A program made the position numbers and the translations under genes. Below the pieces are notes generated by a model that saw only the letters and a program-made list of their open reading frames with translations, ran no database searches and was not told where the DNA came from. DNA of 64,000 nucleotides from Halpernia frigidisoli (lineage in GTDB: Bacteria > Bacteroidota > Bacteroidia > Flavobacteriales > Weeksellaceae). Shown piece by piece: positions 3,143-46,946 of this stretch. The stretch spans positions 310,001 to 374,000 of the forward strand of contig NZ_FOQT01000004.1 of NCBI RefSeq assembly GCF_900113805.1. The letters run 5' to 3'. The stretch's first letter is position 1; each line of letters starts with the position of its first letter.

Positions 3143-4783
3143 TTATTTATTGTTTTTATAATAATTAACTAAAGCATTAGTAGAAGAATCATGTGAAGTT
3201 ACTTGCTCATTATCAAGGAGTTTCGGTAGTATTTTTCCTGCTAAAACTTTTCCTAATTCTACACCAAATTGATCAAAACTAAAGATGTTCCAAATAATTC
3301 CCTGAACAAATATTTTGTGCTCATAAAGCGCAATTAACTGTCCCAAAGAAAAAGGTGTTAATTCTTTAAAAAACAAAGAGTTCGTAGGGGAATCTCCTGT
3401 GAAGACCTTATAAGGTGAAAGTTTAGAAATTTCTTCTTCTGTTTTACCTTCTTTTTTTAATTCTTCAATCACTTCATCCTCTGTTTTACCAAAAGCCAAA
3501 GCTTCTGTTTGTGCGAAAAAATTAGCGAGTAATTTCGGTTGATGATCACCTAAATTGTTGCAGGATTCAATATAAGCTATAAAATCTGCAGGTATTAATT
3601 CTGTTCCCTGATGGATAAGTTGGTAAAAAGCGTGTTGTCCATTGGTTCCTGGTTCGCCCCAGATTACCGGTCCGGTTTCGTACTCAACAAAATCACCGTT
3701 TCTGTCTACACATTTTCCATTACTTTCCATATCTCCCTGTTGTAAATAGGCTGCAAAACGGTCTAAATACTGAGAATAGGGAAGAATAGCAACAGTTCCA
3801 GCGTCGTAAAAATTACGGTACCAGATTCCCAATAATCCCATTATTACAGGAATATTTTCAGAAAATTTTGTAGTTTTAAAATGAATATCGGTCTCGTTTG
3901 CACCTTTTAACAGTTGTTCAAAATTTTCATAACCCACAAATAGAACTATGCTCAAACCTATGGCACTCCACAAAGAATATCTGCCACCTACCCAATCCCA
4001 AAACTGGAAAATATTTTCTTCAGCTATTCCAAATTCTTTTACAGCTTTGATATTAGTTGAAAGGGCAACAAAATGTTTCGCAACGTCATTTTCTTTTCCT
4101 GCTTTTAAAAACCAATCTTTCGCAGAGTTGGCATTCGTCATTGTTTCCTGCGTGGTAAAAGTTTTTGACGCTACGATAAAAAGTGTCGTTTCGGGATTAA
4201 GATCTTTTACCGTTTCAACCAAATGATTACCGTCAATATTTGATATAAAATGAACATTTAATCTTGTTTTGAAATGTTTCAATGCCGAACAAACCATAAC
4301 TGGTCCAAGGTCAGAACCGCCAATTCCGATGTTTACGATATCTGTAATTTCTTTTCCGCTAAAACCTTTGTGATCGCCAGAAATGATCTTTTCTGAAAAA
4401 GTTTTCATTTGATCTAAAACTTTTTTGATCTCTGGTTTTATATTTTCGCCGTCCACCAAGATAGGCTCCGGGGAAAAATCTCTTAATGCAGTGTGAAGAA
4501 CTGCGCGATGCTCTGTTTCGTTAATAATTTCACCAGAAAACATTGCTTTTATTGCTTCTTCAAGTTTGCATTCTTCAGCTAAATTTAAAAGAAGTTCAAG
4601 CGTTTTTTTGTCAATTAAATTTTTAGAAAAATCGAATAAATAATCTTCGTGCTGTATTGAAAATTTGGAAAAACGTTCTGAATCATAATTAAAAAGCGAG
4701 CGCATTTCAAAATCATTTGTTGCGAAATGTTCTTGTAAATTTTTCCAGGATTTAGTATTTAAAGGATTTATTTTTGGTAGCAT
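3143..4783 (-). CDS. pgi: Glucose-6-phosphate isomerase
   Basis: This 546-residue enzyme interconverts glucose-6-phosphate and fructose-6-phosphate in glycolysis and gluconeogenesis. It has the long bacterial/eukaryotic form. Conserved blocks are the phosphate-binding [17 protein letters not shown] near residue 205, the signature [13 protein letters not shown] near 266, and the C-terminal [14 protein letters not shown] near 500. It is the first gene of the run pgi-folD. A perfect -7 box (TAAATTTG on the minus strand) lies at 4836-4843, about 55 bases before the start codon. Confidence 0.97.
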
Positions 4784-4835
4784 TTTGTGATTTTAAATTA
4801 AAAGCATTTAAATTTTTAGCAAGTAGAAATAGTTG

Positions 4836-4843
4836 CAAATTTA
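4836..4843 (-). promoter_or_regulatory. Candidate -7 box for pgi
   Basis: On the minus strand the bases read TAAATTTG, an exact match to the Bacteroidetes -7 consensus TAnnTTTG. No clear TTG -33 element stands 17-20 bases upstream, so this is only a candidate. Confidence 0.4.
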
Positions 4844-4970
4844 ATGAAAAAAAAATGCTTATTTATGATTGTTCACATACTATTGATTTATAATTAATGT
4901 GAATTTTTCTTTAAAAAAATTATATATTTACCTTAATATTTTTAAATAATATTAACATTTAATATATTTA

Positions 4971-5738
4971 ATGAAGAAAATAGGTTTCATATTTTTACTA
5001 TTTAGTATTGTATTACAATCACAAAATAAATTAGATTCAAAAATCAGAGTTTTATATGTGTCAAATTATTTGGAGAGTAAAAAGCCAAATCTCCAAAAGA
5101 TTGATAAAACGGTAGTTTTAATTGCAGGTACGGATGAATCAGTTTTTCTGACAGCCAATTCATATACATCTGATTCACTAAAGCTTGAAAATAGAGGTAT
5201 TGAGGAAGTCATGAAATATTATGAGCCACAGTACCAGTATGAAATTTTAGTGAATAAGCGTGAAATTAACTTTTATGATTCTATTTTAAATACTGAAATT
5301 GGTTATAGTGAACCAAATAAGATGAGTTGGACTTTAGAAAAAGAGTATAAAAATATTTTAGGTGTGAAATGCCAAAAAGCTACGTTGGCGAAATATGGCA
5401 GAAAGTGGATCGCTTTTTTTAGCATGAATTATCCCTTTCCCTTTGGTCCCTATAAATTCAATGGACTTCCAGGTTTAATTTTAGAAGTACATGATTTAGA
5501 CAATGAATTTAATTTTACAGCGGTTGAGATTAAAACTTTTAAGAAAGATTATCCAATTTCAAAGGTCATCAATGTAAAAAAATTTTCTAAAGATGATTTT
5601 TTAAAAGCGAAAAATAATTTAGAAAGTGACTTCACTTTTGGAGGCAAAATAAAATTGGCACCAGAATCTGCAAAATTATTTACCGACAAATATAAAGAAA
5701 ATAGAAAATTTGAAAATCCTATTGAGATTAATAATTAA
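4971..5738 (+). CDS. GLPGLI family secreted protein (orphan copy)
   Basis: A 255-residue exported protein with a signal peptide (residues 1-18, ending near LQSQ). The hallmark GLPGLI lies at residues 165-170, preceded by the family segment FPFGPYKFN and followed by LEVHD. GLPGLI proteins are widespread in Bacteroidetes; their function is not established. They often sit beside TonB-type barrels, but this copy has no barrel neighbour. A second, cassette-borne GLPGLI gene occurs at 44585-45319. The gene stands alone on the plus strand and ends at a bidirectional terminator. Confidence 0.88.
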   Translation: MKKIGFIFLLFSIVLQSQNKLDSKIRVLYVSNYLESKKPNLQKIDKTVVLIAGTDESVFLTANSYTSDSLKLENRGIEEVMKYYEPQYQYEILVNKREINFYDSILNTEIGYSEPNKMSWTLEKEYKNILGVKCQKATLAKYGRKWIAFFSMNYPFPFGPYKFNGLPGLILEVHDLDNEFNFTAVEIKTFKKDYPISKVINVKKFSKDDFLKAKNNLESDFTFGGKIKLAPESAKLFTDKYKENRKFENPIEINN

Positions 5739-5814: not shown

Positions 5815-6246
5815 CTAATTATTTCTTGCATTAAATCTTTCTGTCATAGTGCTTTCCGTAAAACGTTCCCGGCCATCATCGCTTTTGAATATTGGTGAGA
5901 AATCAAGCATAACAGATAGTTTATCGGTTGGCATATTGGGATTAAAATTATTTTTTACCCTTTTGAAAGAGCGGATCAATGCAAATTTAAAGTCATCACT
6001 GGTTTCAGGAAATACTTTTGGATGCTGAATTTTGCCATCTTTATCAAGATCAAACGTTAAAATAAATTTACCATTAACCTGATAATCAGAGGAAAATACG
6101 CCAAAACTATTTTCAACGTCTTTTTTAAATTGTGCGTCACCTCCTTTGTAAACCTCGTTTAAATCTTTACTTTCCGGCGTCGCCACAACCTGAGCTGAAG
6201 CAAATGAAGCACATATCAAACTTATTAATAATACTAACTTTTTCAT
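5815..6246 (-). CDS. Small periplasmic protein, possibly TonB-C-like
   Basis: A 143-residue protein with a clear signal peptide (MKKLVLLISLICASFASAQ). The mature part contains FILTFDLDKDGKIQHPKVFPE followed by a segment spaced like the C-terminal domain of TonB proteins (strand, D-x-D-G, helix, then FNPNMP). It lacks the membrane anchor and proline linker of a true TonB. The fold assignment is an inference and the function is unknown. It lies 28 bases after the DUF4349 lipoprotein gene on the same strand and is probably co-transcribed with it. Confidence 0.55.
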   Translation of the reverse strand: MKKLVLLISLICASFASAQVVATPESKDLNEVYKGGDAQFKKDVENSFGVFSSDYQVNGKFILTFDLDKDGKIQHPKVFPETSDDFKFALIRSFKRVKNNFNPNMPTDKLSVMLDFSPIFKSDDGRERFTESTMTERFNARNN

Positions 6247-41019: not shown

Positions 41020-41345
41020 TGAACAATCAACGCAGTAAACAAGCTATTTTATCATTTGCCGCTTTGGCGTGCCTTTTAATAGGATGGCTACAACCATTCT
41101 CACCACCCGTAAATTATTTTATTTACAACCAATTATTCTACGTTTTAATAGGCGCAAGTTTCTTTTTTCAAGCGCCAACTTTGTCTAATCCTAAAATGAT
41201 TTATCCAATGTACGCTGCTGCTGCACTTTGTGTAATCGGCGCATTTATCCCGGAAAACATGGGAATGGTTAACTATATAAAGACAATTGGACTTTTAGGC
41301 GGTGTTATCATTTCATTGGTTGCGAGGCCAAGGGTTCAGCGTTAA
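41019..41345 (+). CDS. Small four-helix membrane protein
   Basis: A 108-residue hydrophobic protein with about four membrane segments. It begins [20 protein letters not shown] and contains PPVNYFIYNQLFYVLIGASFF and a GLLGGVIISLV end helix. It is translationally coupled to panB. I do not recognise the family and no function can be given. Confidence 0.7.
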   Translation: MNNQRSKQAILSFAALACLLIGWLQPFSPPVNYFIYNQLFYVLIGASFFFQAPTLSNPKMIYPMYAAAALCVIGAFIPENMGMVNYIKTIGLLGGVIISLVARPRVQR

Positions 41346-41361
41346 TCGCTAAAAAGTATTT

Positions 41362-41934
41362 ATGAAATTTTTTTCAACTTTCATTCTGTTGTTATTTTTC
41401 GGAAAAGTTGCCGCTCAAAATTCAAATAGTTTACCAAAAGATCAATTTTATTTAGAATCTACAGTTTTAGCTTTACGTAGCACACACACAAATTATTTTA
41501 ATGGTTTTAGTTTGCTTTTTGGCGATCATTTAAATCAGAAATTTAATCTTGCTTTGGGTTACGAATACTCCGGTAGTAAATTCCATAATGATAATGATTG
41601 GCGGTTGTATAATTTGAGTTTTAACGTCATCTTGATCAGAGAGCAGTTCACGTTATTTTCAAAGAAAAAATTTAATCTTTCCGCTGATTTTCGGGAAGGA
41701 CTCTCATTTATAAAATACGTGAAAGAAGAACCTTTAGTTCGTAAAAATTACCGGTACAGAGTGAAAGAAAAAGGCCTTTATCTCTATGGAGGCATTGATG
41801 CTAAATATGAAGTCTCAAAATGTATTGCCATAGTCTCAGATTTAGGAATTAAAGGATTGCACATGTCTACTAATGTCTATGAAGTTAATCCACATGGATT
41901 AAACTTTATGGTAGGTTTGCAGGTAAAAATTTAA
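41362..41934 (+). CDS. Exported beta-rich protein of unknown function
   Basis: A 190-residue protein with a signal peptide (MKFFSTFILLLFFGKVAAQ). The mature part shows alternating aromatic/hydrophobic strands (FYLESTVLALRSTHTNYFNG, then NLALGYEYSGSKFHNDNDW) that end in MVGLQVKI, like a small outer-membrane barrel. The family is not recognised. It is 16 bases after the small membrane protein gene and is the last gene before the foreign-looking block. Confidence 0.6.
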   Translation: MKFFSTFILLLFFGKVAAQNSNSLPKDQFYLESTVLALRSTHTNYFNGFSLLFGDHLNQKFNLALGYEYSGSKFHNDNDWRLYNLSFNVILIREQFTLFSKKKFNLSADFREGLSFIKYVKEEPLVRKNYRYRVKEKGLYLYGGIDAKYEVSKCIAIVSDLGIKGLHMSTNVYEVNPHGLNFMVGLQVKI

Positions 41935-41945
41935 GTATAAAATAA

Positions 41946-41970
41946 ATGGAGGAACAAATTCCTTTTGAAG
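41946..41970 (+). pseudogene. Apparent remnant of the rluA 5' end
   Basis: These 25 bases start ATG GAG GAA CAA ATT and encode MEEQIPFE. The intact rluA gene at 46272 starts MQDQILFE; 20 of the 25 bases are identical (positions 41946-41970 against 46272-46296), and both end in TTTGAAG. The frame goes on for 35 codons but loses all likeness to RluA. It lies exactly between the panB group and the peptide cassette. An AGGAA-CAAA-TTCCT hairpin in the same bases is an alternative reason for the sequence. Confidence 0.45.
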
Positions 41971-41985
41971 TTGCATTTAATGAAT

Positions 41986-44604
41986 CTATAAATTATAAAT
42001 CAATTTTAGTGTTACATATCTGCGTAAAACATAAATTTTATTTTCAGAAATAAAAGATTCAGAAATTGAATTTGTTATATTCCTTTGACTATTAAAAATA
42101 TTGTTTACCATTAGTTCAAAACTTAAAGGAATTTTGATTGGAGTGTAACTCAAATTAAAATCTCCCTGAATAATTTTATTCTTATTTCCATTATCTGTTG
42201 ATGTTTCAATATTTTTAAAAGATGTTTTCAAAATAAAATACGTTAAGAAAGTTGAACTCAAATTTGCCGTAAAAATCTTTGTTCTATATTTTGATATCCC
42301 ATCATTGAAGGCAACTTCATTGTTATTAATAAAATAGTGAAGTTCAAAATTAGGTGCTTTTCGATATTTGGAAACAAACGCGAATTCAATTTCGCTATTT
42401 TTACCTTTGCTTAATGAATTTTGACCTTCCAAAATTCTTACGGAATGTAGAATCCCATAGTCAAACTTTGTATAAAAATTAATTTTGTACAATACTTTTT
42501 CCACTTTGGCAGAAATGCTCGATTTTTCAAATGGGTTTCTGACATATTTTGGCGTAAAGTATTGTATTCCATTAATGATTTCTAAAGCGGAAACCAAACC
42601 ATTTTCATTGTAGGAGTAAGATGGACTTATACTAAACCCAAATTTAGAATAACCATAATAACGATAGTAAATCGCCGATAAATTGTGTGAAGAAAGGAAA
42701 TATTGATTTACAATATTTCCTTGAAAAAAAACATTAAAATTATTTACAATGAGGTTTGATGTGTAATTTTTGATTGGAATTAAATAGTTGTTTTTTCGAT
42801 AACTAAAATTTAAGTAATTATATTCGCTCCATTTTTTGTCAATCTCTAAATATGGTAAAACCTGATATTTATTTTCATTTTTGTTTTGGGATAGTTGAAA
42901 AAATAAATTGCTTAACTGCGCGCCCACTTTAATATTTAGTTTATTTTTGAAATAACTATACTCGGGAATCAACCCAATTTTAAAAGTAGATAATTTAATA
43001 TCATTTAGGAAGTTTGGCGTAAGATTAAAAGTTTCGGATTGGTATAAATAGTTCGTGTCCTGAAGTAAAAGGCTTACGTTAAAACTGGAATTTTTATAAT
43101 TTTTGCTGATTTTACTCTGGGAATTTATATTGTATATTTTATTATTTTCAATGGATTGTAGTGAGTTTTTCTCATCAGAATTTTTAGAAAGCCAGGTGTC
43201 ATCAGTATCTGCACTTTGAAATGATAAATTTATATCATGGGTAAGTTGCAGGGAATTGTTGATTTTCTGATCAATATGCGTGTTATTTTTTAATGATAAT
43301 GACGCGTTATTAGAATCCGTTAATAAATCGTAGGCCAAAACTGAACTCACAAAATCATTATTGATATTACTTTTATTTGGCGTAGAACTTAACACCAAGT
43401 GATTTCTGAGGTAAAATTTGTCGTTTGGTGCATATTTGTAAGACATGTCCGTGTAAAACAAAGAGGAATTATTTGAACCACTAATTTTACTCAAATCAAA
43501 ATAAGAATTATCTAAAGTTTTATTTTGATTTTCCTGGATGGTATTTGTGTTGATATTTGAATATAAAAAAAGCATCTCAATTTTTGATTTCTTACCAATA
43601 CTTTTGTTAAAATTCAGAGTTGAAAAATTATTTTTTACTGAATTAAAATTTTCATTTGGTAGCGCAAGCGCAATAATGTTTTGGTCCAAACTTGAAAAAA
43701 AATCTTCCGAATTATCCATCATTGCATTTGTGCCACCCTTTAATGCAAAATAATCCGTTATGCTAAATGATTTTTCGCCAATATTGTTGCTGTTTCCAAT
43801 AAATGAATAACTTCTTGCTTTGTTGAAATTAAATAAATTAGCGTGTGCATAATAATTTTTTTGCACGCCGCCGCCAAGAGAGAGGTCTCCAAATAAAATA
43901 TTTTGTTTGTCGTTTTTTAGTTTTATGTTTAGTACCGATTTATTAGTAGGATTATTTTTATTTTTTACACTACTTTCATTATAATTATCAATCACTTCTA
44001 CATTTTCTAAAGAATTTGCAGATATATTATCAATGGCTAATTTTGTGTTATTATTAAAAAAACTTTGGCCTTCAACCAAAGTTCCTGTTATAGATTTGCC
44101 GTTTACTTTCACAGCACCATTTTTATCTACCTCAAAACCGGGCAGTTTTTCTAAAACATCCTTTAGTTTTTTTTCTGTACCATCTATGAAACTTGCAACG
44201 TGGAAAACTGTCGTATCTTGCTTTATTATAATTGGAGCAGAAATATTAACTTCTTCAATTGACGTCGTTTGCTCAGTAGAGAGTGTGAAGTCGGTTTTAC
44301 CTTCTTGAGAATTACTAATCTGGAATTTGAAATTTTCTTTTTGAAGTTGAGGTATCTCAAGCGCGTAGGGAACATCTTTTACTAAAAAAGTCTCGTAGTA
44401 CCCCTTTTCATTTGTACTATCAAAAATATTTTTATTGCTATTATCTGCTGGTTTAAAAATAATGATTTTATTTGAGAGTGGTTTATTATTTGCGTTTTTT
44501 ATAAAACCAAACATTTTCCGCTCTTGCGAAAAGAAAATGTTTGCAATAATTAGAAAAAATATAGTTATTAATTTACTATTCAATTTATAAATTTTTAGAT
44601 TCAT
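41986..44604 (-). CDS. Outer-membrane barrel with carboxypeptidase-regulatory-like N-domain
   Basis: An 872-residue protein. After a signal peptide (ending IFFSQ, about residue 27) comes a carboxypeptidase-regulatory-like beta domain (residues about 30-110). A plug-like region (VFHVASFIDGTEKKLKDVLE, then GFEVDKNGAVKVNGKSITG) and a long barrel of alternating strands follow, ending LKLIYNL. It belongs to the TonB-dependent-receptor-like barrels that flavobacteria pair with GLPGLI proteins. It overlaps the GLPGLI gene by 20 bases. The composition is rich in N, K and S, more than in nearby genes. Confidence 0.78.
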   Translation of the reverse strand: MNLKIYKLNSKLITIFFLIIANIFFSQERKMFGFIKNANNKPLSNKIIIFKPADNSNKNIFDSTNEKGYYETFLVKDVPYALEIPQLQKENFKFQISNSQEGKTDFTLSTEQTTSIEEVNISAPIIIKQDTTVFHVASFIDGTEKKLKDVLEKLPGFEVDKNGAVKVNGKSITGTLVEGQSFFNNNTKLAIDNISANSLENVEVIDNYNESSVKNKNNPTNKSVLNIKLKNDKQNILFGDLSLGGGVQKNYYAHANLFNFNKARSYSFIGNSNNIGEKSFSITDYFALKGGTNAMMDNSEDFFSSLDQNIIALALPNENFNSVKNNFSTLNFNKSIGKKSKIEMLFLYSNINTNTIQENQNKTLDNSYFDLSKISGSNNSSLFYTDMSYKYAPNDKFYLRNHLVLSSTPNKSNINNDFVSSVLAYDLLTDSNNASLSLKNNTHIDQKINNSLQLTHDINLSFQSADTDDTWLSKNSDEKNSLQSIENNKIYNINSQSKISKNYKNSSFNVSLLLQDTNYLYQSETFNLTPNFLNDIKLSTFKIGLIPEYSYFKNKLNIKVGAQLSNLFFQLSQNKNENKYQVLPYLEIDKKWSEYNYLNFSYRKNNYLIPIKNYTSNLIVNNFNVFFQGNIVNQYFLSSHNLSAIYYRYYGYSKFGFSISPSYSYNENGLVSALEIINGIQYFTPKYVRNPFEKSSISAKVEKVLYKINFYTKFDYGILHSVRILEGQNSLSKGKNSEIEFAFVSKYRKAPNFELHYFINNNEVAFNDGISKYRTKIFTANLSSTFLTYFILKTSFKNIETSTDNGNKNKIIQGDFNLSYTPIKIPLSFELMVNNIFNSQRNITNSISESFISENKIYVLRRYVTLKLIYNL

Positions 44605-45319
44605 ATTTTAAATACTCGCTAATTGTCACTTTTTTTCCTTTTTCTGATACTTTTTCTACTTCAGTGTCTTTTGGATTTAATTCTAAATTTTGCAAATACG
44701 TCGTAAATGTTTTATTGTCTGTCACGATAATCACTAATCCTGGTAAACCAGAAAACTGATAAGGGCCCGCTTTTATTGGGATTGAAGGACAAAACCATGC
44801 TTCAATAGGTCTTGATTCTATTTTGGCATCTTTAAAAACATCATTATAAGTTGTATTTGCCTTATAACATTCATAATTTCCAATTTTCTTTTGTTCATTT
44901 GTAATATTCCATATTACATCTTGTTTTGTATAAGTAACCAAAAATGCACTTCCTTTAAATTCTTTATCGTTTATAATTTCACCAGTATTTAAATTAGTGA
45001 AATAATTACCAGCAACTTTTGAAATAATATAAGCGATATTAATTCCAGATTCATTTTCATTTTTTGGTTGTAATAGGAATGAACTTATAGAATCTCTGAT
45101 CTTTAATTGAAAAACTGCTTTTTTATCGTTGTTATTCATCAAAAGTTCAATCGCGTTGTCAAAATATTTTTCTGCCATCTTTGGGTGTTCTTTCATCATT
45201 TCTTTCTTATCTAATTTTTTAGTGAAAGTATTGATCATCACATAATCTGCTTTTATGTTTGTTTGAGCGAAAAATAAATAGGGTGCTAATATAAAGAGTA
45301 GTAATTTTTTTGATTTCAT
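44585..45319 (-). CDS. GLPGLI family secreted protein (cassette copy)
   Basis: A 244-residue protein with a signal peptide (residues 1-19, LAPYLFFAQ). The hallmark appears as SGLPGLVIIVTD with GLPGLV at residues 191-196, preceded by IPIKAGPYQF. Its role is unknown. It is the middle gene of the peptide cassette, 82 bases after the peptide gene and overlapping the barrel gene by 20 bases, which suggests joint function with the barrel. Confidence 0.87.
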   Translation of the reverse strand: MKSKKLLLFILAPYLFFAQTNIKADYVMINTFTKKLDKKEMMKEHPKMAEKYFDNAIELLMNNNDKKAVFQLKIRDSISSFLLQPKNENESGINIAYIISKVAGNYFTNLNTGEIINDKEFKGSAFLVTYTKQDVIWNITNEQKKIGNYECYKANTTYNDVFKDAKIESRPIEAWFCPSIPIKAGPYQFSGLPGLVIIVTDNKTFTTYLQNLELNPKDTEVEKVSEKGKKVTISEYLKYESKNL

Positions 45320-45336
45320 TCTTGGGTTTTTATTTA

Positions 45337-45371
45337 AAAATAGCTATCTTATTATGCAAGATAGCTATTTT
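45337..45371 (-). terminator. Strong hairpin after the peptide gene (attenuator)
   Basis: A perfect 14-base stem (AAAATAGCTATCTT/AAGATAGCTATTTT) with a 7-base loop lies between the peptide and GLPGLI genes. Five T follow on the minus strand. It should stop most transcripts so that the peptide is made in excess over the downstream proteins. Confidence 0.8.
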
Positions 45372-45400
45372 GGTTGAATAATTGTGGGTGATTTTTGCTC

Positions 45401-45763
45401 TTAAGCAGGAGTTAAAGCTGCAGGTTGTGGCTTACCTCCAAAGATTGCAGTACATCCTGCAGTGGTAGAAAGTCCAATTGCCGCAGCTCCAGCAGCCCCA
45501 ACTCCTAATTTTATTGCGGCAGCTTCTGCAATAGCTCCAGCTAAATTACAATACCATCTATCGTTTGGACCATCATCATCAGAAAGCATAAAGTAAGTTT
45601 GTCCGTTATTTCCAACAAAAGTTTGTGCTTCTGCTTTAGATAGATTTAGAAAATTTACAGATGTAGTTTCTTGTAAATTTACATTTTTTACTTCACTCGT
45701 TTTTGCAAACGCGGAAGTGCTTACAGCTAAAGCTAAAAAGCTTCCAAAAATAATTTTTTTCAT
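45401..45763 (-). CDS. Secreted Gly/Ala-rich two-cysteine peptide precursor
   Basis: A 120-residue precursor when started at ATG 45763, which begins a clean signal peptide (MKKIIFGSFLALAVSTSAFA). A longer frame from 45817 only adds codons upstream of it. The mature part has a polar segment, an acidic stretch SDDDGPNDRWYC, and a Gly/Ala-rich helical segment at residues 75-110 (ending CTAIFGG). The two cysteines are C72 and C104 and could form a disulfide. This looks like a bacteriocin or a surface peptide with a glycine-zipper segment. No homolog is known to me. It is the first gene of the cassette, divergent from the XRE gene. Confidence 0.65.
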   Translation of the reverse strand: MKKIIFGSFLALAVSTSAFAKTSEVKNVNLQETTSVNFLNLSKAEAQTFVGNNGQTYFMLSDDDGPNDRWYCNLAGAIAEAAAIKLGVGAAGAAAIGLSTTAGCTAIFGGKPQPAALTPA

Positions 45764-45825
45764 AATAATTAATATTTTTTTGATTAATGTCTTACAAACT
45801 TCACAAAAAATATCCAAAAACAGTG

Positions 45826-45863
45826 TTGCGAAAGTAATGCAAATATAGTTGCGCTAAAGCAAC
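45826..45863. promoter_or_regulatory. Palindromic operator between the peptide and XRE genes
   Basis: GTTGC-GCTAAA-GCAAC (45848-45863) is a perfect inverted repeat. A second related site, TTGC-N9-GCAA, lies at 45826-45842. The repeats overlap the -7 box of the peptide gene (TATATTTG on minus, 45840-45847) and lie just upstream of the XRE -7 box (45876-45883). A regulator bound here could control both genes. Confidence 0.65.
45840..45847 (-). promoter_or_regulatory. -7 box of the peptide operon
   Basis: TATATTTG on the minus strand is a perfect match to TAnnTTTG, giving a leader of about 70 bases before ATG 45763. It lies between the two operator repeats. Confidence 0.6.
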
Positions 45864-45875
45864 ATTATTTTTATT

Positions 45876-45883
45876 TATATTTG
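45876..45883 (+). promoter_or_regulatory. -7 box of the XRE gene
   Basis: TATATTTG on the plus strand matches TAnnTTTG. The transcript would begin about 11 bases before the ATG at 45899. Confidence 0.6.
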
Positions 45884-45898
45884 TCACAAAATTAAACT

Positions 45899-46249
45899 AT
45901 GTCTGTAAGTACAAATCTAAGAATTTTACGAAGTAAAAAGAAATTATCTCAACAAGAAGTTGCAGACCATTTAGAGATTGATAGAAATACTTACATAAAA
46001 TGGGAAAATGGAACAGCGGATATAAAATCACAACACATGCCAAAAATAGCGGAAGTTTTTAACGTAGAAATTGCAGATTTATTTAAAGAAGATCAAAAAT
46101 TATCAATCACAAATAATTTTAATAACAAAGACAATTCAAATGGTCAAAAAGATTTGCAACAAGGAATTATTATAAATATTTCAGATACTGAAGTGGCAAA
46201 AAAGCTATCAATTCAATTAGAAACTATAATTAGTAGTTTTAAAAAATAG
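45899..46249 (+). CDS. XRE-family transcriptional regulator
   Basis: A 116-residue protein with a Cro/CI-type helix-turn-helix at residues about 5-60 (NLRILRSKKKLSQQEVADHL, then EIDRNTYIKWENG). The rest is an Asn-rich linker and a C-terminal helix that may dimerise. It faces the peptide operon across the palindromic operator and probably represses or tunes it and itself. The rluA gene starts 22 bases after it. Confidence 0.88.
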   Translation: MSVSTNLRILRSKKKLSQQEVADHLEIDRNTYIKWENGTADIKSQHMPKIAEVFNVEIADLFKEDQKLSITNNFNNKDNSNGQKDLQQGIIINISDTEVAKKLSIQLETIISSFKK

Positions 46250-46271
46250 GCGACTAATCTAACAAAACTAA

Positions 46272-46946
46272 ATGCAAGATCAAATTCTCTTTGAAGACAA
46301 TCATCTTTTAATTATCAATAAAAAAGCAGGACAACTTGTGCAAGGTGATAAAACAGGAGACGAATCTTTGTTGGATTCTCTTAAGAATTATATTAAAATA
46401 AAAGAAAATAAGCCCGGAAATGTTTTTCTTGGTTTGGTTCATAGAATAGATAGACCCACCTCCGGCTGCGTTATTTATGCTAAAACTTCGAAGGCGTTAA
46501 CGCGCCTGACTGTAATGGTGAAAAACCGTGAAGTACAAAAAACGTATTGGGCGGTGGTCCCGAAAGCGGAAATCCCGGAAACGCAGAGACTGGTTCATTT
46601 TTTAAAAAAGAATGAAAAGAATAACAAATCTACTGTTTTCCCGAAACCTACTGAAGGTGCAAAAGAATCAATTCTAAATTATAAAGTCGCAAAAATTTTA
46701 GATAATTTTCAATTGCTGGAAGTTGATTTAGAAACCGGAAGACACCATCAGATCCGCGCCCAATTATCTAAAATTGGAGTGCCCATAAAAGGTGACTTAA
46801 AGTACGGTTCTGCAAGATCCAATGCAGATGGTGGAATTCACTTACATGCCAGAAATTTAGAATTTCTTCATCCTGTGACGCAACATAAAATTTCTGTGAC
46901 AGCGCCTGTTCCGCAAAACGATGCGGTTTGGAAGGCTTGTGAATAG
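46272..46946 (+). CDS. RluA family pseudouridine synthase
   Basis: A 224-residue rRNA or tRNA pseudouridine synthase. The catalytic aspartate is Asp60 in HRIDRPTSG. Other motifs are LETGRHHQIRAQLSKIG and HLHARNLEFLHPV. No S4 domain precedes the core, which is normal for the short form. The starting residues MQDQILFE resemble the sequence at 41946 on the far side of the peptide cassette. Confidence 0.92.
   Translation: MQDQILFEDNHLLIINKKAGQLVQGDKTGDESLLDSLKNYIKIKENKPGNVFLGLVHRIDRPTSGCVIYAKTSKALTRLTVMVKNREVQKTYWAVVPKAEIPETQRLVHFLKKNEKNNKSTVFPKPTEGAKESILNYKVAKILDNFQLLEVDLETGRHHQIRAQLSKIGVPIKGDLKYGSARSNADGGIHLHARNLEFLHPVTQHKISVTAPVPQNDAVWKACE

Follow-up and report, generated by a model that had tools for sequence, protein, structure and literature searches.

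The window analysed here, a 64,000-nucleotide stretch of the Halpernia frigidisoli genome (contig NZ_FOQT01000004.1, positions 310,001 to 374,000), contains an operon whose minus-strand genes encode, in succession, a short secreted peptide, a GLPGLI-family protein and an outer-membrane barrel. The peptide gene (45401-45763, minus strand) encodes 120 residues, comprising a 20-residue Sec-type signal peptide (residues 1-20) without a lipobox cysteine or a GG-type leader, an EVKN-type pro-segment and a core in which Cys72 and Cys104 flank a Gly/Ala-rich stretch. An RNA hairpin (approximately 45337-45371, minus strand) with a stem of 14-15 bp and z=-6.6 against dinucleotide shuffles occupies the gap before the GLPGLI gene (44585-45319, minus strand), whose 244-residue product carries a signal peptide without a lipobox and matches TIGR01200 at E=2.2e-39. 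This gene overlaps by 20 bp (44585-44604) that of an 872-residue TonB-dependent-transporter-like barrel with an N-terminal CarboxypepD_reg-like domain and plug (41986-44604, minus strand). Divergent from the operon lies the gene of an XRE-family regulator (45899-46249, plus strand; 116 residues; HTH_19/HTH_3). All of these elements, including a 14-bp hairpin after the peptide gene, had been described in an earlier note on this DNA, and each was confirmed in place.

The order of peptide, GLPGLI and barrel genes recurs in other genomes. Genome contigs were scanned with four barrels as queries, the peptide not being used, and 29 loci with close barrels (>300 bits) were retrieved, three of which repeat the query loci. 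At the 26 new loci, a GLPGLI gene lies directly upstream of the barrel in 25, and a small open reading frame (ORF) precedes GLPGLI in 24, a few of these with mis-called starts or without cysteine; one failing locus (L091) sits at a contig edge. Among 56 lower-scoring, distant barrels, no GLPGLI gene was found within 800 bp upstream. When a strict rule was applied automatically, small signal-peptide ORFs were detected upstream of 29 of 47 barrel-linked GLPGLI genes and 26 of 56 other GLPGLI genes, compared with only 10 of 357 control genes, i.e., other genes of similar length (enrichment p=1e-23). Weak leader-region matches of the window peptide likewise point to small ORFs that immediately precede GLPGLI-barrel pairs elsewhere, and the cassette hosts include Chryseobacterium, Amniculibacterium, Nonlabens, Polaribacter, Maribacter, Lutibacter, Aquimarina, Tenacibaculum and Flavobacterium, among others. 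Because gene order, hairpin and XRE gene each recur in other genomes, the arrangement of the locus goes beyond chance. The earlier note had made its proposal depend on a conserved link between such peptides and GLPGLI-barrel pairs in other genomes, and this link is borne out by a search that used the barrel only. Recurrence, controls and the cassette exchange described below strongly support, at the level of sequence, an undescribed genomic core of peptide, GLPGLI protein and barrel; this part of the note's claim therefore stands, whereas its reading as a bacteriocin or peptide-export operon is kept conditional here. A match on a Riemerella 'plasmid' record, which has chromosomal-type genes at that position and no peptide cassette, was set aside.

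The peptides share a general design. Across 59 of them, the median mature length is 71 residues and the median net charge is -4 (48 are acidic), and 55 contain either two (29 peptides) or four (26 peptides) cysteines, so that the mature products look, by sequence, probably disulfide-bonded. A pro-segment of the xVK type follows the cleavage site in 13 peptides against 0.7 expected from shuffles, an excess to which shared ancestry of some leaders contributes. No full-length relative of the window peptide was found in viral contigs, genome contigs or 320 family genomes, which yielded leader-region matches only, and the peptides matched no family in Pfam, NCBIfam, PHROGs or PADLOC. A Type IX C-terminal sorting domain was detected in none of 44 peptides by Pfam or NCBIfam, searches that short sequences may escape. 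In two loci (L054:8002-8364 and L275:5201-5608), a gene for a DCC1-like thiol-disulfide oxidoreductase adjoins the GLPGLI gene, a neighbour that draws attention given the likely disulfides of the peptides. A different type of peptide export stands side by side with GLPGLI and peptide genes in one Weeksellaceae locus (L058:1501-5462), where two GG-leader peptides and genes of the ABC-transporter and membrane-fusion type lie near them.

Among cassettes with a 35-120-nt gap, a strong hairpin separates the peptide and GLPGLI genes in 36 of 40, compared with 49 of 150 control gaps (Fisher p=3e-11) and 9 of 26 gaps after GLPGLI; since the hairpin sequences are unrelated, the structure is what is kept. 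The suggestion that this makes the peptide the abundant product by design goes further than these data; the hairpin would fit partial termination or 3'-end protection, and many of the related hairpins have no strong U-run. XRE genes are present in only a subset of cassette loci. When XRE homologues were searched independently, a GLPGLI gene was within reach at 23 of 30 loci and a signal-peptide-bearing peptide at 15, several of the latter being one Chryseobacterium type. Peptides of one XRE-linked type, AVWTSTCGVKHYTTF...ECG...VTINP with a variable middle, occur at L218-L226, L235 and L241 in Chryseobacterium-type genomes. The XRE/peptide intergenic region of the window holds a palindrome, GTTGC-N6-GCAAC (45848-45863), present there as a single copy in the 64 kb; a candidate operator, it was rejected as a conserved one, as it was not found near XRE relatives.

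The window GLPGLI protein is a clear member of its family (135.6 bits against the curated TIGR01200 cut-off of 50 bits). Its motif reads GLPGLV, and across 94 relatives G194 is invariant and L192, P193 and I/V196 nearly so. In the AlphaFold2 (AF2) model (predicted local distance difference test score, pLDDT, 84.6; predicted template-modelling score, pTM, 0.79), the best fold match is the N-terminal domain of PNGase F-II (Foldseek E=4e-7; Z 16.1 over 168 residues at 2.7 Å), followed at Z 9-10.5 by LolA (Z about 10), RseB (9.2) and EPDR1, and the PNGase_F-II_N domain is matched by sequence in 67 of the 94 relatives. The protein is thus predicted to be a periplasmic half-barrel like the PNGase F-II N-domain and LolA, and the LolA-like pocket of the model suits a carrier or sequestering role. 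To our knowledge, the GLPGLI family (TIGR01200/PF09697 Porph_ging) has no known function. The 3-Mb genome carries 19 GLPGLI genes. A second one in the window (4971-5738, plus strand) has no upstream peptide gene, and at L064:14023-17561 in the same genome the order is reversed, with a barrel gene first and then a GLPGLI gene split by a stop codon.

The barrel model (AF2; pLDDT 80.9, pTM 0.70) matches 213 structures in the Protein Data Bank (PDB) at E<=1e-3, the best 50 of which are all TonB-dependent transporters (FhuE, E=8e-16); the closest solved folds, among the matches listed, are siderophore and cobalamin receptors. The Plug profile scores 14.9 bits in the window barrel, below the Pfam gathering score of 23.9, so the predicted assignment as a TonB-dependent transporter with an N-terminal plug rests on the fold and not on the Pfam profile. 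The CarbopepD_reg match is weak in the window barrel; this domain is found in 43 of 45 relatives, and Plug reaches E<0.01 in only 4 of 45. Since the TM-scores are modest, details of the model are not to be leaned on. The sole hint of energisation by TonB-ExbBD is the segment 'SIEEVNI', which resembles a TonB box and precedes the plug.

Comparison of related loci reveals which parts of the cassette are exchanged. At the site between a YjbR-like gene and ribF in Chryseobacterium species (L050, L070, L071) and in related loci, identity is 76-87% for barrels and 67-86% for leaders, while the cores are mostly at shuffled-level identity and the GLPGLI proteins 30-39% identical. L070 and L071 represent a same-site exchange in Chryseobacterium, in which DNA identity runs from 85% upstream and 86% in the leader to 46% in the core and 53% in GLPGLI, and rises again to 77-89% in the barrel and 95% downstream. 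For this exchange, the proportions of nonsynonymous and synonymous differences (pN/pS) are.068/.50 for the barrel,.54/.62 for the core and.46/.59 for GLPGLI. Leader and barrel pN/pS are low in all pairs compared, and in the close pair L072/L073 the core is under purifying selection (pN.04, pS.26); because of these low values, the cores are to be regarded as real, constrained proteins that are replaced and not decayed. After controlling for barrel similarity, core and GLPGLI similarities are linked (partial r 0.36, or 0.12 by rank; p=0.001), using shuffle Z-scores with close duplicates dropped. As leader and barrel are constant while core and GLPGLI vary and co-vary, the sequences suggest that GLPGLI is the specific partner of the peptide and the barrel shared machinery. 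Arrays of 2-4 peptide-GLPGLI cassettes sharing one barrel (L050, L076, L189) also occur, and the Flavobacterium plasmid NZ_CP092371.1 (26122-38478; L276) carries a barrel together with two GLPGLI genes and four peptides whose leaders are almost identical, with transposases on both sides. Between the cassettes of L050, short ORFs resembling the barrel N-terminus (4726-4848 and 6016-6222) and long T-runs are found, a pattern such as successive peptide-GLPGLI-barrel units might leave after loss of their barrels. For the peptide core and the GLPGLI protein of the window itself, joint matches occur in a single degraded locus (L183:6203-7943, genome G313), with a peptide remnant bearing WYCxLAG...AIFG and a GLPGLI gene broken by an insertion sequence/transposase.

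The operon itself lies on accessory DNA. In H. humi DSM 21580 (L214 in G001, the sole same-genus neighbour within the genome set), the order is panB, 108-residue ORF, rluA, with the last two directly adjacent and the insert absent. It is likewise missing at rluA in eleven other Weeksellaceae, in eight of which panB or the 108-residue ORF adjoins rluA. Positions 41346-46271, between the 108-residue ORF (ending at 41345) and rluA (starting at 46272), are therefore a 4.9-kb insertion. Its remaining gene (41362-41934, plus strand) converges on the barrel gene and encodes a 190-residue protein with a signal peptide, perhaps a small component of the outer membrane and only a candidate member of the system; it has no relative at any other cassette locus and no family in Pfam, NCBIfam, PHROGs or PADLOC. 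The insertion contains no ABC transporter, and Pfam and NCBIfam identify no enzyme family among its genes that could modify a peptide in the manner of ribosomally synthesized and post-translationally modified peptides (RiPPs). Among PADLOC models the XRE protein is the sole match, through a generic HTH, and no known anti-phage defence system was matched; Rfam and tandem-repeat scans returned nothing. A phage origin was rejected, no DNA match having been found.

As a plausible mechanism, and the best explanation we can offer although it falls somewhat short of an even chance, the operon would encode a polymorphic secreted peptide that has its own GLPGLI partner and is transported by the barrel. 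This proposal draws on the observed co-occurrence, gene order, hairpin, cysteine pattern, exchange and accessory location, and on the predicted folds of GLPGLI and barrel; peptide-GLPGLI binding, transport direction, regulation and biological purpose are what we infer. The peptide would reach the periplasm via its Sec signal peptide, be cleaved and probably fold around one or two disulfides. There its cognate GLPGLI, a LolA/RseB-like half-barrel, would bind that particular peptide as carrier or guard, and the TonB-dependent barrel would transport it through the outer membrane, most likely to the outside. The hairpin may favour peptide over machinery mRNA, and the XRE protein, where present, may repress the operon. 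Peptide core and GLPGLI would be swapped together between strains, like a toxin/immunity or recognition pair, and the sequence patterns point to a use of the secreted peptides in bacterial competition or recognition. More specifically, and more tentatively, the cassettes might represent a large and so far undescribed class of TonB-powered peptide export systems in Flavobacteriales, in which dedicated LolA-fold GLPGLI carriers each hold one polymorphic disulfide peptide, and recombination swaps cargo and carrier together, with the signal peptide on one side and the transporter on the other kept constant.

Several observations weigh against this proposal. Across 295 Bacteroidia genomes, many GLPGLI-barrel pairs (e.g., L250-L256, L258-L264, L267-L268, L270 and L272-L274) have no such peptide, mostly with a longer GLPGLI protein of about 245-320 residues, and among the loci inspected the peptide is seen in Flavobacteriales only. 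The peptide link is therefore clade-specific, and the GLPGLI-barrel pair, which predates the peptide system or extends beyond it, serves a different or wider function and did not evolve for these peptides alone. In addition, TonB-dependent transporters normally import, L071 and L072 retain 62% core identity with GLPGLI at 39%, and an earlier rank-based Mantel test on raw core identities failed to reach significance, since the identities of most cores do not rise above noise.

The main rival, which we consider unlikely but clearly ahead of the remaining ones, is that the peptide is a narrow-range bacteriocin acting in the periplasm or outer membrane of the target, sequestered by GLPGLI as its immunity protein, with the barrel as exporter or receptor. 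The exchange of core and GLPGLI as a pair between constant flanks and the accessory-island and plasmid locations would be expected from such a system, and the many peptide-less GLPGLI genes (this genome has 19 GLPGLI genes in all) could be orphan immunity genes. However, widespread peptide-less GLPGLI-barrel pairs imply a GLPGLI role beyond immunity, and because such pairs exist we regard GLPGLI as first a transport partner; the acidic peptides are also not of the cationic kind. A peptide that is released otherwise, binds a nutrient or cofactor outside and re-enters by the barrel, with GLPGLI as its periplasmic receiver, would accord with the importing habit of TonB-dependent transporters, the siderophore- and cobalamin-receptor folds and a LolA-like protein able to receive cargo. 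We nevertheless judge it improbable: a ligand carrier should be conserved, yet the cores are mostly at shuffled-level identity beside barrels at 76-87%, and the cassette encodes no other release route. Slightly less probable still is that peptide and GLPGLI form a ligand/receptor pair for self/non-self recognition or signalling and not for killing, which would fit polymorphic paired genes with constant machinery and the XRE regulator in a subset of loci, but not a GLPGLI protein predicted to be periplasmic and soluble with no signalling domain. That the small signal-peptide ORFs are merely unrelated short genes beside GLPGLI, as cores mostly without detectable homology to one another might suggest, is very hard to reconcile with the enrichment over control genes, cysteine parity, conserved leader, hairpin statistics and purifying selection on the L072/L073 core.

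GLPGLI proteins are numerous yet without a known function, and the cassette offers the first connection to a substrate that can be tested. Should transport be outward, TonB-driven peptide export would be added to the known secretion routes. The hypervariable peptides would constitute a so far unused reservoir of molecules for interactions between bacteria. While the window protein shares membership of the GLPGLI family, its pairing with exchangeable secreted peptides was found undescribed in the open-access literature, to which the search extended (subscription papers lay outside it) and which contained incidental GLPGLI mentions only. The predicted GLPGLI fold resembles LolA/LolB, RseB and the PNGase F-II N-terminal domain; however, sequence identity to LolA is 4-11%, and the proposed cargo, having no lipobox cysteine, is not a lipoprotein. 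Bacteroidetocins, the class IIa-like bacteriocins of Bacteroidetes, are also small peptides with cysteines, but they use a 15-residue GG leader, an ABC peptidase-transporter and a thiol oxidoreductase and have no immunity gene (PMC6671954), whereas the peptides described here have a Sec-type leader and are paired with GLPGLI and a TonB-dependent barrel. A precedent for an outward protein cargo is Oar, a TonB-dependent transporter needed for PopC secretion in Myxococcus (PMC6434023); that cargo is a large protease without a signal peptide, with neither a GLPGLI-like partner nor a polymorphic peptide, whereas export through the present barrel is proposed only, for a small Sec-dependent peptide with its own GLPGLI partner.

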